A stretch of 62,098 bases of DNA from the NCBI GenBank assembly GCA_029820295.1, contig JALGVA010000007.1:1-62098 (forward strand), given 5' to 3'. A program made the translations under genes and the position numbers. This document shows, piece after piece, positions 22,062 to 33,031 of the stretch. The number at the start of each line of letters is the position of its first letter. Position 1 is the stretch's first letter. This DNA is from Candidatus Zipacnadia bacterium. Lineage in GTDB: Bacteria; Armatimonadota; Zipacnadia; Zipacnadales; UBA5352. A model generated the notes under the pieces. It had not been told where the DNA came from, searched no databases, and worked only from the letters and a program-made list of their open reading frames with translations.

Positions 22062-23123
22062 ATGAAGCGCACGACAATGCTCACCGCGGCCCTCGTCGTA
22101 CTGGTGGCGGCTACCGCCGCGGCGTGGATGCCCCTTGGGCCGCGGAACCATGGGCCGGATGCGGTCACCATCCAGTTCGACGGCACACTGCATGAGCTGA
22201 CCGAGAAACTGCGTCAGGAACACGACGTGAATGTTCTCGGGGTCGGCCTCGTCGAAGATGTCCACGTGAGTCTGGACCTGCGGGCAGTCACGCCGGAGGA
22301 GGTCGTGGCGGCCGTGTGCCGGGAGGTCGGCTGTGTCTACGAGCGCATCGGGTTCGACGGGCGGGCCTTCATGCTCCGCGAGGGCGACTGGGATGCCGAC
22401 CCACGGCCGCAAGCGACCGCCGGCGACTACCGCCTCTACGTCCACAGAGTCGGCCTTGAGGACAGCAGCACCATCGACTTCCAGTGGGGTCAGGACGAGC
22501 CCGTCAGGACCAAGACCCACCGGCTGACCGTGTCGGTCTCCGCCCAGGCGCGAGACCAGGGGGGCGCCGGTCAGGTGTTCGGCCTCTCCGGCGGGGCGGA
22601 GGTCACCACCGACGCAGGCGAGACGTTGGCGCGAACGGGCGATCAGCGTTCAATCGTGCAGGAGTTCGGCACGCACCCGGTTCGGCTCAGCTTCCCGCGG
22701 CCCACACGCGAGGCTGAGACGATCGACTTCCACGGCAAGCTGGCCCTGTTCTCACGCGTGGTGGCGCTGGACGCGAGCTGGTCCCCTGATGAGGTCGGCG
22801 AGACCCGCGCCTCAGACGGCCTCCAGTGGCGACTGACGCGGTGGGGGATGGAGGATGGGGGCATCAGGGTCGCCATTGAGGCGGATGTGGCGCATCGGCC
22901 GGCATCGACGGACCACGTTCGGGCCACGCTGGTCGGCCCGGAGGATGAGATCGAGCTAGGCGCTCCGGGGGCGGCGACCTCACCCGACCATGTGCAGTTG
23001 CGTTGGCGGGTTGATGCGCCCCAGTGGCAGCCGCAGAAGCTTGTTGTCAGCGGTCACGTGGGCCTGGAGCCGCTGCGTTACGTCGAGTTCACCATCGAGG
23101 GCATTCCGCTCCCTGGGAACTGA
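22062..23123 (+). CDS. Exported protein with an STN-like domain
   Basis: A 353-residue protein with a signal peptide (TMLTAALVVLVAATAAAW). Residues about 34-100 (VTIQFDGTLHELTEKLRQEHDVNVL, then VHVSLDLRAVTPEEVVAAVCREVGC) resemble the STN domain at the periplasmic end of secretins and TonB receptors, but no secretin or barrel follows. The rest is beta-rich and unrecognised. Good GGGAGGGGG upstream. It may sense or scaffold in the envelope. It heads a run of same-strand genes leading to a STAS protein and a sigma factor. Confidence 0.6.
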   Translation: MKRTTMLTAALVVLVAATAAAWMPLGPRNHGPDAVTIQFDGTLHELTEKLRQEHDVNVLGVGLVEDVHVSLDLRAVTPEEVVAAVCREVGCVYERIGFDGRAFMLREGDWDADPRPQATAGDYRLYVHRVGLEDSSTIDFQWGQDEPVRTKTHRLTVSVSAQARDQGGAGQVFGLSGGAEVTTDAGETLARTGDQRSIVQEFGTHPVRLSFPRPTREAETIDFHGKLALFSRVVALDASWSPDEVGETRASDGLQWRLTRWGMEDGGIRVAIEADVAHRPASTDHVRATLVGPEDEIELGAPGAATSPDHVQLRWRVDAPQWQPQKLVVSGHVGLEPLRYVEFTIEGIPLPGN

Positions 23124-24261: not shown

Positions 24262-24286
24262 GGAACCTTATGGGCACGAATGCGTT
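24262..24286 (+). promoter_or_regulatory. Candidate ECF-type promoter ahead of the sigma gene
   Basis: GGAACC at 24262-24267, 15 nt, then CGTT at 24283-24286, as in many promoters read by ECF sigma factors. It would place the start near 24293, upstream of GTG 24309 but downstream of ATG 24270. This supports autoregulation and the shorter reading frame. No second copy was noticed elsewhere in the window. Confidence 0.45.
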
Positions 24287-24308
24287 TGTTGATAGTGAGG
24301 ATCTCCCG

Positions 24309-24968
24309 GTGAAGGCCAATGATGCCGGGCCGAGCGGCAGTAACCGGGCCGATCAGGTGCTGGTTGAGGCGGCTCAGGAGGGCAACGCCGACGCCTTCGG
24401 GACCCTCGCCGAGCGGTACTACAGCAGCGTCTACGGTATCGTGTACCGCATGTGCGGGGCCGGGGAGGCCGCGGACCTGACCCAGGAGATATTCCTGCGG
24501 GCGCTGCGTGCCTTGCGCAAGTTCCAGTTTCACGGCGAGGCCAGCTTCCGCACCTGGCTCTACCGCATCGCGGTGAACGCGTGCATCAACGAGCTGCGCC
24601 GCCGCAAACGCCGGACCGACATCGAGGGGCCGTCGCTGGATGAGGATGTGCCGACGAACGACGGGACGGTGTCGCGCACCGTCCCGGACGAGACGCAGAG
24701 CCCGCACGTGCTCGCCGAGCGAGCTGAGGTGCAGCGGGCGGTGCACATGATAGTGGCGACGCTCACGCCCAAGCACCGTGCCGCGCTGACGCTGGTGGAC
24801 CTGCAGGAACTTGACTACGAGGAGGCGGCGCAGGTGCTCGAGTGCCCGTTGGGGACGCTCAAGTCCCGGCTGGCGCGGGCCCGCCGCCAGTTTGCCGAGA
24901 AGTGGCGGCAGTACGAGGAGGGCACGTTCTCGATCCAGGCCGCGCGCGGACAGGGCGAAGGTGGCTGA
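24309..24968 (+). CDS. ECF-family RNA polymerase sigma factor
   Basis: Sigma factor of about 219 residues. Region 2 runs from ADQVLVEAAQEGNADAFGTLAERYY through DLTQEIFLRALRALRKFQFHGEASFRTWLYRIAVNACINELRRRKRR, and region 4 is LTPKHRAALTLVDLQELDYEEAAQVLECPLGTLKSRLARARRQF. The linker is charged and of normal length. GTG 24309 is preceded by GTGAGG and leaves a short N-terminus. ATG 24270 is an alternative but would overlap the likely autoregulatory promoter. The anti-sigma gene follows 33 nt later. Confidence 0.92.
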   Translation: MKANDAGPSGSNRADQVLVEAAQEGNADAFGTLAERYYSSVYGIVYRMCGAGEAADLTQEIFLRALRALRKFQFHGEASFRTWLYRIAVNACINELRRRKRRTDIEGPSLDEDVPTNDGTVSRTVPDETQSPHVLAERAEVQRAVHMIVATLTPKHRAALTLVDLQELDYEEAAQVLECPLGTLKSRLARARRQFAEKWRQYEEGTFSIQAARGQGEGG

Positions 24969-25001: not shown

Positions 25002-26135
25002 ATGAAGCCGGACTGCAGCAGCATTGAGGCCATGCTCAGCGCGTCGCTGGACGGGGAGCTGACCCCGGACGAGGCGCGCGCATGCGCGGCGCATCTTGAG
25101 GCGTGCGACGCCTGTCGCGCGCAGCACGCGGCGCTGGTGTCGGCGCGCGCGGTGCTGCGCGGCGTGCCGCCTCCGCAGCCGCCGCCTGATCTGCTGCCCG
25201 CGATCCGCGCGGCGGCAGACGCCGAGATGCTCGGCGAAGACGCCGCGATCGCGCTACTGCACGCCATGCCCGCGCCCGAGCCGCCCCCCGATCTTCTGCC
25301 CGCCATCCGGATCGCCGTCGCCGCACAGACGCGCAGGGACCGTGCCACGCAGGCGTTCTGGGGGCGCTGGCGCACGGCGCTGGGTGTGGCCGCCGCCGCC
25401 GCGGTCTTGCTGGCGGCTGTCTTCGTGCCGCGCGGGCATGAGCCGATGACCGCGGCCGGACCGCACATCACGGCCGTCGCGCCCGAGACCCCCTCGACGC
25501 CTGCCGAGCCCGTGGCCGCCCCGGAGGAGGTCGCCGAGGCCGCGCCGGTCACGCCCAACAGCGTGGCGCTGGCGATGGCGTCGCCGCGCCGCCACCCGTC
25601 GTCCCGCGCCGTGGCGGACGTGAGACCCGACCGGGCTGAGCGCCCGGAGGAGCCCGCGCCGGTGGCGGAGGAGGTGGCTCCGAGGCCCGAGCCCGCCGCG
25701 CCGGTCGGCGAACCCGCGCTGGCCGTGGCCCCGCGGGAGGCCCCCACGGCCCCCTCGGCGGCGCCGATCGCGCCGGGGCAGATCACCAACGGAACGATGC
25801 TGGCGATGGCGCCGCGCACGACGCCTGCCCATGCTCCGGCCGAGACGCCGGCGTCACCTGTGGCCGAGGCGCCCGCGTCGCCGGTGGCCGGGGGGCCGTC
25901 GGCGCTGGAGACCGAGCTGGCGGCCGGCGTGGTCGCGCGCATGGTCGTGGACAGCTTCGTGGCCGAACATCTCATCGAGAGCGCGCCGACGCTCATGGCC
26001 GTGGTCACCGACTCGCCCACGGCTGAGGTCGGGCCGGTGCTCGCCGACGAGAGCGAGGACTCGGCGAACTTCGGCCTCAACTTCACCGAGAGCATGCGCC
26101 GCGCGCTGTCGCAGACGCACAACCAGCTCCCGTGA
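25002..26135 (+). CDS. Zinc-finger anti-sigma factor with long exported Ala/Pro-rich region
   Basis: Membrane anti-sigma factor of 377 residues. The cytoplasmic ZAS domain shows Cys5 and His31-x3-Cys35-x2-Cys38 (HLEACDAC). Next come two copies of PPPDLLPAIR (near residues 60 and 96), then a membrane segment (about 124-142, ALGVAAAAAVLLAAVFV). Beyond it is a roughly 235-residue low-complexity Ala/Pro/Glu-rich part ending in a more ordered tail (NFGLNFTESMRRAL). ATG 25002 has GGAGAGAG upstream. Its stop overlaps the start of the next gene, so the exported repeat protein is probably co-made and may be the signal-sensing partner. Confidence 0.85.
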   Translation: MKPDCSSIEAMLSASLDGELTPDEARACAAHLEACDACRAQHAALVSARAVLRGVPPPQPPPDLLPAIRAAADAEMLGEDAAIALLHAMPAPEPPPDLLPAIRIAVAAQTRRDRATQAFWGRWRTALGVAAAAAVLLAAVFVPRGHEPMTAAGPHITAVAPETPSTPAEPVAAPEEVAEAAPVTPNSVALAMASPRRHPSSRAVADVRPDRAERPEEPAPVAEEVAPRPEPAAPVGEPALAVAPREAPTAPSAAPIAPGQITNGTMLAMAPRTTPAHAPAETPASPVAEAPASPVAGGPSALETELAAGVVARMVVDSFVAEHLIESAPTLMAVVTDSPTAEVGPVLADESEDSANFGLNFTESMRRALSQTHNQLP

Positions 26136-26917
26136 TGCGCACCGCGTTCGCCGCCCTCCTGGCCGTGCTCCTGGTGACCTCGCTGGCCGCTGGCGACACG
26201 ACGCCGCCCGCGCCCGAGCCCGGAGAGGAGCCCGCAGCGGAGGAGGAGACCGCTCCGCCTGGCCCCGCCGAGGTCTGGCCGCCCGACGACACCAGCCTGA
26301 TGGCCCTGCTCGCGGGCGCCACCGAGGACCAGCGCACGCGCGTACTGCGCTTCCTGCGCAACCGCTACCCCGACCTGAGCGTGGAGTTGCCCGCACTGCT
26401 GCAGACGCACTGCCCGGGCATCTTCGTGGACCTCGACCACGAGCTGCAGACGCTCATCGCCGCCCGCTACCCGCGCCTGGGCGCGACCGTGCAGCGGCTG
26501 CTGCAGGAGGCCATCGCCCAGCGCTATCCGCAGGTGCGGCAGGAGATCAACACGCTGATCGCTGAGAAGTACCCGGACCTGCTGGCGGGGATCTCCGGCG
26601 CGCGGCAGGGCGACGCCGCGGAGGAGCACGCGCCGGAAGTGCAGGAGCGGTACCGCGCACTGCTCGATGACGTGCTGGCGCTGCTGCGTGACCGCTACCC
26701 GACGCTGCTCATCGAGGTCCAGCGCGATCTGCTGGTGAAGCACCCCGAGCTGCTGGCCGACGTCGCCGGGCTCATCGGCGAGCGCTACCCGGAGGTCGCG
26801 CGCAAGGTCAGCGGTGTGCTGGCCGCGAAGTACCCCGAGCTGATACCCGGCGTGCTGGAGATACTCGCTCCGGTGGCGGCCGACGAGCCGGCCGACCAGC
26901 CGCCTGCGCAGGAGTGA
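26132..26917 (+). CDS. Exported protein of about 15-residue YP repeats
   Basis: A 261-residue protein with a signal peptide (RTAFAALLAVLLVTSLAAG) and a Pro/Glu-rich linker to about residue 55. It then consists of repeats of the form [RK]-Y-P-x-[LV]-x3-[VIL]-x2-[LV]-[LI]. Prolines fall at residues 80, 95, 114, 133, 148, 190, 205, 220 and 235, i.e. spaced 15 or 19 apart, with a degenerate unit near 168. This predicts a solenoid of short amphipathic helices. No family is recognised. GTG 26132 or ATG 26135, overlapping the anti-sigma stop. Confidence 0.72.
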   Translation: MMRTAFAALLAVLLVTSLAAGDTTPPAPEPGEEPAAEEETAPPGPAEVWPPDDTSLMALLAGATEDQRTRVLRFLRNRYPDLSVELPALLQTHCPGIFVDLDHELQTLIAARYPRLGATVQRLLQEAIAQRYPQVRQEINTLIAEKYPDLLAGISGARQGDAAEEHAPEVQERYRALLDDVLALLRDRYPTLLIEVQRDLLVKHPELLADVAGLIGERYPEVARKVSGVLAAKYPELIPGVLEILAPVAADEPADQPPAQE

Positions 26918-30081: not shown

Positions 30082-30498
30082 ATGAATGTCGACCGCGAGC
30101 TGCTCGAGCGCCTGCGCGCCTTCCACGGGCATCTGGGGCCGTTCGCCATGCTGGGCTACCGCGCCGGCAGGCTGGCGCTCGAGCGCCTGGGCGCGCGCTC
30201 GCACTTCGGCATCAGCGCGCGCGTCACGTGCCCCGATCACACCCCGCCCTCGTGCTTCGCCGACGGCATTCAGTTCAGCACGGGCTGCACGCTGGGGAAG
30301 GGCAACATCACGCTGACGCCCTCGGAGACGGTCTCGGTCACCGTGACCGTCAACAACAGTGGCGCCGCACTCACCGTCGTGCCGCGCCGCGAGGTCATGG
30401 CTCAGTTCGGCCCATGGATGGCGGAGGCCGACGACGAGACCGCCGCCCTGCGCGTGCTCGCCATGCCCGACGAGGAGCTGTTCGAGCCGATCAGTTAG
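30082..30498 (+). CDS. FmdE-like domain protein
   Basis: A 138-residue stand-alone FmdE domain, similar to subunit E of formylmethanofuran dehydrogenase. Motifs are FHGHLGPFAMLGYRAG and CFADGIQFSTGCTLGKGNI, with Cys and His that bind metal in relatives. No formylmethanofuran dehydrogenase subunits are near, so it is a bacterial family member of unknown use, perhaps in C1 or metal metabolism. It starts 3 nt after the zinc ribbon gene, and its TAG overlaps the stop of convergent phoU by three to four bases. Confidence 0.85.
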   Translation: MNVDRELLERLRAFHGHLGPFAMLGYRAGRLALERLGARSHFGISARVTCPDHTPPSCFADGIQFSTGCTLGKGNITLTPSETVSVTVTVNNSGAALTVVPRREVMAQFGPWMAEADDETAALRVLAMPDEELFEPIS

Positions 30499-31214
30499 CG
30501 CTCCTCGCCCCCCTCTTCCGTCTCGGTCCAGGACGCGGTGTGTGACAGCGCCAGGTCCTCGAACCGGCCGGTCTCCATGTACGACACGCGCTCGGCGACG
30601 TTTACCACGTGGTCGGCGATGCGCTCGAGATAGCGCGCCACCAGCAGCAGGTGCGTGGCCTGCAGGATCAGCTCCGGGTCCTGCTGCATGTACTGCACCA
30701 GCTCGTCGAGCAGGTGGTACCACAGCCGGTCCACCTCATCGTCCTGCTCGATGACCTCGCGCACCAGCCCCAGGTCCGCCCTGACGAAAGCCTGGGCGGC
30801 GGTGCGCACCATGCCGATGGTGATGTCACTCATGCGCGGGATGTCCACCAGCGCCTTGAAGTAGGGCTCGTCGGCGAGGGTCTTTGCGGAACGGGCAATG
30901 TCCACCGCATAATCGCCCACGCGCTCGAGGTCGGCGATGACCTTCATGGCGGTGCCGATGATGCGCAGATCCTTGGCCATCGGCTGCTGCAGCGCCAGCA
31001 GGCGCATGCACTCCTGCTCGATGTGCAGGTCGAGATCGTCGGCGACGTCGTCGTCGAGGATGACCTTGTCGGCGAGGGCCTCGTCCTGATCGACCAGCGC
31101 CCGCATGGCGTCCGACAGCATCTCCACCACGAAGCTGGCCAGGCGGGTCACGTCCACCCGGACCTGCTCGATCTGCTCCTCGAAGGTCTCCCTGATCCTG
31201 CGCATCTCGTGCAC
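30495..31214 (-). CDS. phoU: PhoU, phosphate signalling regulator
   Basis: A 239-residue all-helical protein with two PhoU repeats. Each carries the metal-binding E/D-x3-D type motif: DLERVGDYAVDIA near residue 95 and YLERIADHVVNVAERV near residue 195. PhoU links the Pst transporter to the PhoR/PhoB system and limits phosphate uptake. Last gene of the pst operon, 52 nt after pstB. Its stop codon overlaps that of the convergent fmdE-like gene. Confidence 0.95.
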   Translation of the reverse strand: MHEMRRIRETFEEQIEQVRVDVTRLASFVVEMLSDAMRALVDQDEALADKVILDDDVADDLDLHIEQECMRLLALQQPMAKDLRIIGTAMKVIADLERVGDYAVDIARSAKTLADEPYFKALVDIPRMSDITIGMVRTAAQAFVRADLGLVREVIEQDDEVDRLWYHLLDELVQYMQQDPELILQATHLLLVARYLERIADHVVNVAERVSYMETGRFEDLALSHTASWTETEEGGEER

Positions 31215-31266
31215 TTCCTTCGCAACACGAGTGTGGCGCGATGCCGTCTCCGTCGGCTCGCGCCGG

Positions 31267-32160
31267 CTACCCGAAGCGGCCTCTGACGTATGCGTCGGTG
31301 CGCTCGTCCTCGGGGTCCTCGAAGATCTTCGTGGTCAGGTCGAACTCGACCAGCTCACCGAGCAGGAAGAAGCCGGTGCGGTCCGACACGCGCGACGCCT
31401 GGTACATGTTGTGCGTGACGATGACGATGGCCAGGTGCTCCTTCAGCTCGATCATGAGTTCCTCGATGCGGAAGGTGGCCGTGGGATCGAGCGCGGAGCA
31501 CGGCTCGTCCATGAGCAGCACCTCGGGCCCGACCGCCAGCGTGCGCGCGATGCACAGTCGCTGCTGCTGGCCGCCCGAGAGGTCGAGGGCCGATTTGTGC
31601 AGGTCGTCCTTGACCTCATCCCACAGCGCCGCGCCGCGCAGGGAGCGCTCAACGATCTCGTCGGCCTCGGTGCGCGACAGCCGGGCCTGCAGGCGCGGCC
31701 CGTAGACCACGTTGTTGTAGATCGACATCGGGAACGGGTTGGGGTGCTGGAAGACCATGCCCACGCGGCGGCGCAGAGACACCAGGTCGGTGCCGGGGGC
31801 GAGGATGCTCTCGCCGTCGAGCAGCACCTGGCCTTCGGTGCGGGTGCCGGCGATCTCGTCGTTCATGCGGTTGAGCGAGCGCAGGAAGGTGGACTTGCCG
31901 CAGCCCGACGGGCCGATGAGCGCCGTGATCTCGCGGTCGCGCAGCGTGACGTCAACGCCCTTGATGGCCTCGAAATCGCCGTAGAAGATGCGCAGGTCGC
32001 GCGTCTCGATCTTGACGCGGTGCTCCTCGCCGCTCTGTACAGGGCCGGTGCGGCCTGGATCGAGTGCGGCCTGCAGGAAGTCGGGGTCGCCCGTCGGCCG
32101 CTCAGCGCTGTCCGTGATGTCCGGTGTGATTGGGGCCTGTGTGGTTGTATCCTTCTCCAT
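31267..32160 (-). CDS. pstB: PstB, phosphate ABC transporter ATPase
   Basis: ATPase of the high-affinity phosphate importer, 297 residues from ATG 32160, which has GAGGAA upstream. Walker A is GPSGCGKST, the signature [16 protein letters not shown], Walker [14 protein letters not shown], and the switch His is in [10 protein letters not shown]. It has an unusual acidic N-terminal extension of about 45 residues ([20 protein letters not shown]...) before the domain starts at [13 protein letters not shown]. It follows pstA by 28 nt. Confidence 0.95.
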
Positions 32161-32188
32161 GGACGGTTCCTCGCTGCGCATGTGCATC

Positions 32189-33031
32189 CTACCACCGTCG
32201 CCGGCGCAGGCGGGCGCGCACTACGATGGCGACGAGGTTCAGCCCGAGCACCAGCGCGACCAGCACGAAGGCCGTGGCCCACTTCTTCTCGATGGGCACC
32301 CCCGGGGCCTCGCTGGCCATGACGTAGAGTTGGTAGGGCATGGCGACGATCTCGTCAAAGAGCGAGTTCGGATAGGGGTCGCGCAGCCAGTAGAAGGCCG
32401 CCGTGAACAGGATCGGGGCGGTCTCGCCCGCCGCGCGCGCGATGGACAGGATCAGGCCGGTCATGATGCCCGGCAGCGCGTTGGGCAGCACGACGCGGCG
32501 AATGGTCTGCCACTTGCTCGCCCCCAACGCCAGCGAGCCCTCGCGCAGGCCGGCCGGGATCTGCCGCAATGCCTCCTCGGACGCGCTGATCACGAGTGGC
32601 AGCACCAGCAGCGCCAGCGTACACGCGCCCGCCGCCAGGCAGCGCCCGAAGCCCAGCATGATCACGAACAGCGCGAGGCCGAACAGGCCGTAGACCACCG
32701 ACGGCACGCCGGCCAGGTTGATGATGGCCAGGCGGATGATGCGCAGCAGCGGCCCGGGGCGGGCGTACTCGGACAGGTAGATGGCCGCGCCCACGCCCAG
32801 CGGGGCGGCGATCAGCGCGGTCAGGCCGACCAGCCAGGTCGTGCCCACGATGGCCGGCAGCAGGCCCTCCTCGGCGTCGGCGATGAGCTGCCAGTCAAGC
32901 GCCGAGGCGCCGCGGTAGAGCATGTAGCCCATGATGCCGACCACGGGCAGTGACACGACGATCATGACGATCCACAGGCTCGCGAAGGCGATATGCTCCT
33001 GGACCCGCGGGTCGAGCCACCGGCGCCTCAT
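32189..33031 (-). CDS. pstA: PstA, phosphate ABC transporter permease
   Basis: A 280-residue inner-membrane permease with about six hydrophobic segments. The family's EAA-type loop is visible as [42 protein letters not shown], which docks on PstB. It forms the membrane channel with PstC. Its start overlaps the pstC stop by four bases (ATGA), so the two are translationally coupled. Confidence 0.95.

Follow-up and report, generated by a model that had tools for sequence, protein, structure and literature searches.

The window, a stretch of 62,098 nucleotides, carries a gene for an exported protein built of 15-residue repeats, which forms a conserved triad with the genes of an ECF sigma factor and its anti-sigma factor. 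Here we refer to it as the YP protein. Its family is genuinely undescribed as far as the searched libraries reach, and the signalling unit in which it sits is of a known kind. ECF sigma factors are a major bacterial signalling route, and we know of few extracytoplasmic sensors acting on ECF anti-sigma factors. Our computations revealed the conserved triad, a co-distribution of YP with a helix in the outer part of the anti-sigma factor, a promoter motif, a predicted array of short helices and an RseB-like gene in the same slot of a sister operon. We propose, and give it an even chance, that YP could act as the third, extracytoplasmic partner in an autoregulated ECF system, RseB/MucB-like in role and unrelated in origin, which would dock on the outer helix of the anti-sigma factor and control its proteolysis.

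The 15-residue repeat and its predicted structure

The YP open reading frame occupies positions 26132-26917 of the + strand, where a GTG at 26132 is directly followed by an ATG at 26135. The protein and its parts are as follows.

26135..26917, + strand: exported YP-repeat protein of 260 aa (homologs found in 27 of the phylum's 291 genomes)
26135..26194, + strand: putative signal peptide, about residues 1-20, no conserved lipobox (sequence by eye)
26288..26878, + strand: repeat core, residues 52-248, with 13 predicted short helices (AlphaFold2 and lag-15 autocorrelation, z = 8.7)

The repeat unit is P-x-L-L-x-D-V-x-x-L-[IVL]-x-E-[KR]-[YHF] in the window protein and P-x-L-L-x-[DE]-V-x-x-L-[IVL]-x-E-[KR]-[YHF] in the family, the strongest hydrophobic positions being 3, 7 and 11. 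The prolines heading the helices are P79, P94, P113, P132, P147, P189, P204, P219 and P234. Their spacings of 15, 19, 19 and 15, and then of 15, 15 and 15, are exactly those read from the sequence in the preliminary description; the 42-residue gap between the two series is made up of a loop and a degenerate unit headed by R174, a position at which many relatives have proline. Among 28 family members, the spacing of 15 dominated, with 107 of about 190 intervals, and 19 came next with 27.

The 15-residue repeat is real and beyond chance. Self-similarity at lag 15 reached z = 8.7, a value attained by none of 2000 shuffles at any tested lag, and it was raised at lags 19, 30 and 34 as well. The Tyr-Pro motif ascribed to the prolines held for the core as a whole, with seven YP dipeptides (a count that 0 of 20000 shuffles reached), but not for P94, which is preceded by Cys. 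Pro, Tyr, Leu and Asp are the nearly invariant residues of the family, and there is no conserved set of metal ligands among them. Export, the other property that had been claimed for the protein, agrees with its hydrophobic N-terminus, recognised by eye as a signal peptide and seen also in those relatives whose genes are complete at the 5′ end.

AlphaFold2 was run with 26 family sequences, both on the full-length protein and on the core alone. The same 13 short helices were predicted in the two models, with a mean pLDDT of 82 for the full-length protein and of 87.9 (pTM 0.75) for the core, and no beta strand appeared in either. Each repeat helix is predicted to begin at its proline or at most two residues from it, and in the C-terminal half only one residue, aromatic or His and just before the proline, stands between successive helices. 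The idea of short helix units is thus borne out by the models, whereas their supposed ending in hydrophobic pairs is slightly off: the hydrophobic residues lie at positions 3, 4, 7, 10 and 11, and the unit ends in Lys or Arg plus an aromatic residue. Foldseek gave no match for YP at E ≤ 0.001 against PDB or against viral models, and the best VIA-align comparison with PDB had a Z of 4.2 at an rmsd near 10 Å. A lack of matches in these comparisons is no proof of novelty, as the tools themselves caution, and the YP core may or may not represent a new fold.

A profile search detected homologs in 27 of the phylum's 291 genomes, each of them in the one class, and a single-sequence search found YP in 27 of 61 genomes, its own genome counted. 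The identity of family members to the window protein ranged from 56% down to 23%. No Pfam or NCBIfam model matched the window protein convincingly, and no Pfam repeat model matched it at E up to 1; no TPR, HEAT, ARM or other repeat model was among the 25 families listed for the 26-member alignment. A PDB profile search returned chance-level matches only (best E 0.058), so the view that the protein belongs to no recognised family outlasted the Pfam, NCBIfam and PDB sequence searches. YP was not found by tblastn in plasmid and phage records. A limited contig search reaching beyond the phylum gave nothing with the single protein, and with the family f1 alignment it gave f1 relatives only, apart from a chance hit to a gene of hydantoinase type (L083). 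Literature searches turned up neither a described family of 15-residue helical repeats nor any study of WS1 ECF factors.

Operon, promoter and sister operon

The locus lies on contig C170 of a 5.63 Mb MAG of Candidatus Zipacnadia (WS1, Armatimonadota), a little-known, uncultivated class described in PMC10290634. The local gene order is GDSL esterase, ECF sigma factor, zf-HC2 anti-sigma factor, YP-repeat gene, alcohol dehydrogenase-like gene, zinc ribbon (minus strand), NIF3 and CT398-like gene. The elements upstream of YP are as follows.

24262..24286 (-35/-10 pair within 24262-24290), + strand: ECF-type promoter-like site, GGAACCTT-N12-GCGTT, which overlaps the start codon annotated for the sigma gene (motif counts, codon usage)
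24270..24968, + strand: ECF sigma factor (Sigma70_r2 76 bits, Sigma70_r4_2 50 bits; NCBIfam sigma70-ECF above cut-off)
25002..26135, + strand: membrane anti-sigma factor, 377 aa from the ATG at 25002 (zf-HC2 38.6 bits)

The HMM matches, Sigma70_r2 and r4_2 in the first protein and zf-HC2 in the second, identify an ECF sigma/ZAS pair. As had been noticed, the YP start overlaps the stop of the anti-sigma gene: in the sequence TGATG, the ATG at 26135 shares a base with the TGA at 26133-26135, and such an overlap is present in most of family f1. The suggested coupling to an ECF/ZAS pair extends to the relatives, with the anti-sigma gene directly 5′ of YP in all 26 related loci that have upstream sequence and an ECF sigma gene 5′ of it in all 23 with enough contig. 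The preliminary description, which is supported in part overall, came through on both points on which it could have failed, as the sigma coupling is unbroken in relatives and no described repeat family was matched. Genes 4 onward at the YP loci are an ordinary, partly conserved neighbourhood, and thus the unit is the triad of sigma factor, anti-sigma factor and YP. Homologs of RseP and HtrA were found in the same genome.

One other genome (G006) carries two divergent whole triads (L028 on G006:C27 and L029 on G006:C5), each with its own promoter, which reflect either a duplication or contamination of the bin. Further upstream in the window, positions 22062-23123 encode an exported 353-aa protein, 5′ of STAS and esterase genes, whose N-terminal part looked STN-like by eye and which was without any Pfam model match. 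Genes resembling PhoU, PstB and PstA were seen by eye nearby on the minus strand (30495-33031).

A GGAAC...[CT]GTT pattern with ECF-like spacing precedes 25 of 26 YP-type sigma genes, versus 1.4% of random 260-nt windows, and the site in the window is the only perfect match in this genome. The region is 70% GC, and the -10 part uses TTT and GTT, which account for 7% of the Phe and 5% of the Val codons in neighbouring genes; since these codons are rare, the site is probably constrained as DNA. As the promoter straddles the annotated sigma start, that start was probably placed too far upstream. The conserved core of the sigma factor begins near residue 28. Among nine f1 operons with a sigma gene, the strict pattern was perfect in seven and had one mismatch in two. 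It gave no consistent second target in the f1 genomes, degenerate promoters lying outside its reach. These sequence patterns suggest that the operon is autoregulated, perhaps with a small regulon.

The promoter would also suit a different reading, in which YP is an output of the response, such as an envelope chaperone or a membrane-coating protein, that is merely co-transcribed and regulates nothing. The ECF-type promoter is conserved and its consistent f1 matches are confined to the YP operon, so YP could be the main target; in addition, Pro-headed amphipathic helices of 15 residues recall, from general knowledge, lipid-binding helix arrays. However, the model of the core is confidently folded (pTM 0.75) and is not an open helix chain.

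A paralogous operon in the same genome also bears on this. This second ECF operon (G000:C238, L175:1859-4197) encodes a sigma factor, a short zf-HC2-like anti-sigma factor and an exported LolA/RseB-like protein (PF17131 39 bits, PF03888 21 bits). Its gene order is like that of the YP operon, the two sigma factors are 45% identical, and its anti-sigma factor, like the YP-type one, ends in a conserved C-terminal segment. In contrast, its third protein is of the LolA_like/MucB_RseB type and not made of YP repeats, and the outer region of its anti-sigma factor is short. PF03888 matches were present behind 12 of the 21 paralogous sigma genes of the class. As a LolA/RseB-like gene is third in this operon, YP fills the slot of an RseB-like protein in the sister operon, which would not be expected of a mere output.

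Two further families, f5 and f8, have the orthologous sigma/anti-sigma pair followed by a different exported protein (L117:5851-6774 and L119:3386-4462). The one in L117 showed a weak STN match and a helical-looking C-terminus. Both were considered as YP relatives and dismissed, as no significant match was obtained.

The outer segment of the anti-sigma factor

Three parts of the anti-sigma factor were delimited in the window.

25014..25118, + strand: zf-HC2 (ZAS) domain (zf-HC2 HMM match)
25374..25430, + strand: likely single transmembrane segment, TALGVAAAAAVLLAAVFVP (by eye)
25896..26018, + strand: conserved C-terminal outer segment, PSALETELAAGVVARMVVDSFVAEHLIESAPTLMAVVTDSP, proposed docking helix (alignment and cross-family HMM tests)

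The same plan is found across the YP families, namely a zinc finger, a membrane segment, a long variable linker and, at the C-terminus, a conserved segment of some 40 residues. HMMs for this outer helix were built from the last 95 residues of the anti-sigma factors. Trained on f1, the HMM detected the helix in every f3a member, at 26-37 bits, and in the sole YP-bearing member of f6 (38 bits), and the converse training recognised f1 and f6. At E < 0.01, an HMM of f1 and f3a together found 6 of the 7 YP partners kept out of training and none of 10 anti-sigma factors without YP (Fisher p = 0.0006, kinship uncorrected). The partner that it missed belongs to the most divergent YP locus (L046, family f7), where the helix went undetected and 185 bases separate the YP gene from the anti-sigma gene. 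Scores were weak in f2 and f3b (8-15 bits).

Nine of the ten YP-less loci are the best sigma match of their genome, and the tenth (L126) is a paralog. The orthologous YP-less loci retain both the sigma and the anti-sigma gene, several of them with the same ADH, NIF3 and CT398 neighbours. On the sigma tree, the presence of YP changes four times, three of these changes being forced by well-supported branches, and within f6 the outer helix and YP are either both present or both absent. This co-distribution is the pattern expected of a docking segment, and it lends indirect support from sequence comparison to the binding of YP to the outer region, one of the possibilities raised in the preliminary description. 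It is not what would be expected if YP were only an output of the response, and we consider that reading rather unlikely.

Perhaps YP and the anti-sigma helix are instead old features of a single lineage, independent of each other and lost jointly without any contact between them. The family tree is mostly vertical, the independent losses are few (at least three), and one YP-positive locus (L046) is without the helix, all of which would fit. On the other hand, the helix stays conserved from family to family, the linker next to it varies freely, and the split inside f6 tracks the presence of YP, which makes linked inheritance very improbable in our judgement.

We also considered the anti-sigma helix as a homolog of the YP repeat that completes the array, and rejected this, as PSSM scores were no higher than those of shuffles in most members and hhalign gave nothing. 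In family f4, the anti-sigma factors without YP (L121:1708-2304, L123:4832-5458 and L124:4716-5375) have a short outer region with a conserved stretch of their own, VVTSGGGVI..LTD..DPMR, which is possibly another partner site.

Proposed role and comparison with known systems

In the role that we propose, YP would be made together with the anti-sigma factor and then exported, and would bind its partner by the conserved C-terminal helix in which the long flexible outer region of the latter ends. Bound YP would keep the anti-sigma factor intact or in an inhibiting state. YP would be released by an envelope signal, perhaps a ligand such as a lipid or an unfolded protein that the array holds by its hydrophobic faces, after which HtrA and RseP-type proteases could cleave the anti-sigma factor. 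Transcription of its own operon by the freed sigma factor would in turn restore the brake. Here we infer the binding, the action as a brake rather than an activator, the signal and the proteolysis.

In E. coli and Pseudomonas, binding of RseB/MucB shields the anti-sigma factor from the site-1 protease (PMC7400510, PMC8103513), and MucA and RseA bind their partners mainly via a helix that lies C-terminally in their flexible periplasmic region (PMC7400510). The outer region of the YP-type anti-sigma factor is likewise flexible and contains a helix towards its C-terminus. As in the RseA-RseB and MucA-MucB systems, the product of the third gene of an ECF sigma/anti-sigma operon is exported, and YP is such a protein encoded behind the anti-sigma gene, its signal peptide being recognised by eye. 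RseB and MucB are, however, two-domain, beta-rich proteins with a PF03888 N-terminal domain, whereas YP is predicted to be all-helical and repetitive. PF03888 had no match in the YP protein of the window, even at E values as high as 1, and was not among the 25 families listed for the alignment, and all PF03888 matches of the class are at loci other than YP. The role assigned to YP therefore rests on position and co-distribution, as it has neither sequence nor predicted fold in common with RseB.

A more specific version, which we put forward tentatively and regard as somewhat doubtful, is that a new all-helical fold of Pro-started 15-residue helices replaced an RseB-type sensor in one branch of ECF systems, where it would read the state of the envelope and hold the anti-sigma factor via a dedicated C-terminal helix. 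If YP does bind that helix, the sensor of such a switch would be exchangeable for an unrelated one. The YP core (about 200 residues) and the anti-sigma segment (about 40 residues) make a defined pair.

The small all-helical periplasmic protein CnrX, which is encoded by CnrYXH together with an ECF sigma factor and an anti-sigma factor, offers another model. YP might be a ligand sensor of this sort: on binding a metal or a small ligand it would alter its contact with the anti-sigma factor, with a positive or allosteric effect that involves no shielding from a protease. YP resembles CnrX and the LTXXQ/Spy/CpxP proteins in being all-helical (as predicted) and exported, and its gene shares an operon with those of an ECF sigma factor and its anti-sigma factor, as in CnrYXH. 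Yet CnrX and Spy are hooked hairpins, whereas YP is an array of 15-residue repeats with about 13 short helices and without conserved metal ligands. No LTXXQ/CnrX-type match was obtained: PF07813 matched nothing in the window protein and was absent from the families listed for the YP alignment, and its seven matches in the class are all away from YP loci. Thus, we think a CnrX-like sensor unlikely. Membership in LTXXQ/Spy itself had been considered for an N-terminal AT-x-EQR that resembles LTxxQ by eye, and it was discarded as the HMMs gave nothing.

With TPR, HEAT and ARM proteins, YP shares an array of short helices and a regular hydrophobic pattern. Their repeat, however, comprises two or three helices over 30-40 residues, whereas that of YP is predicted to be one Pro-headed helix of 15 residues.
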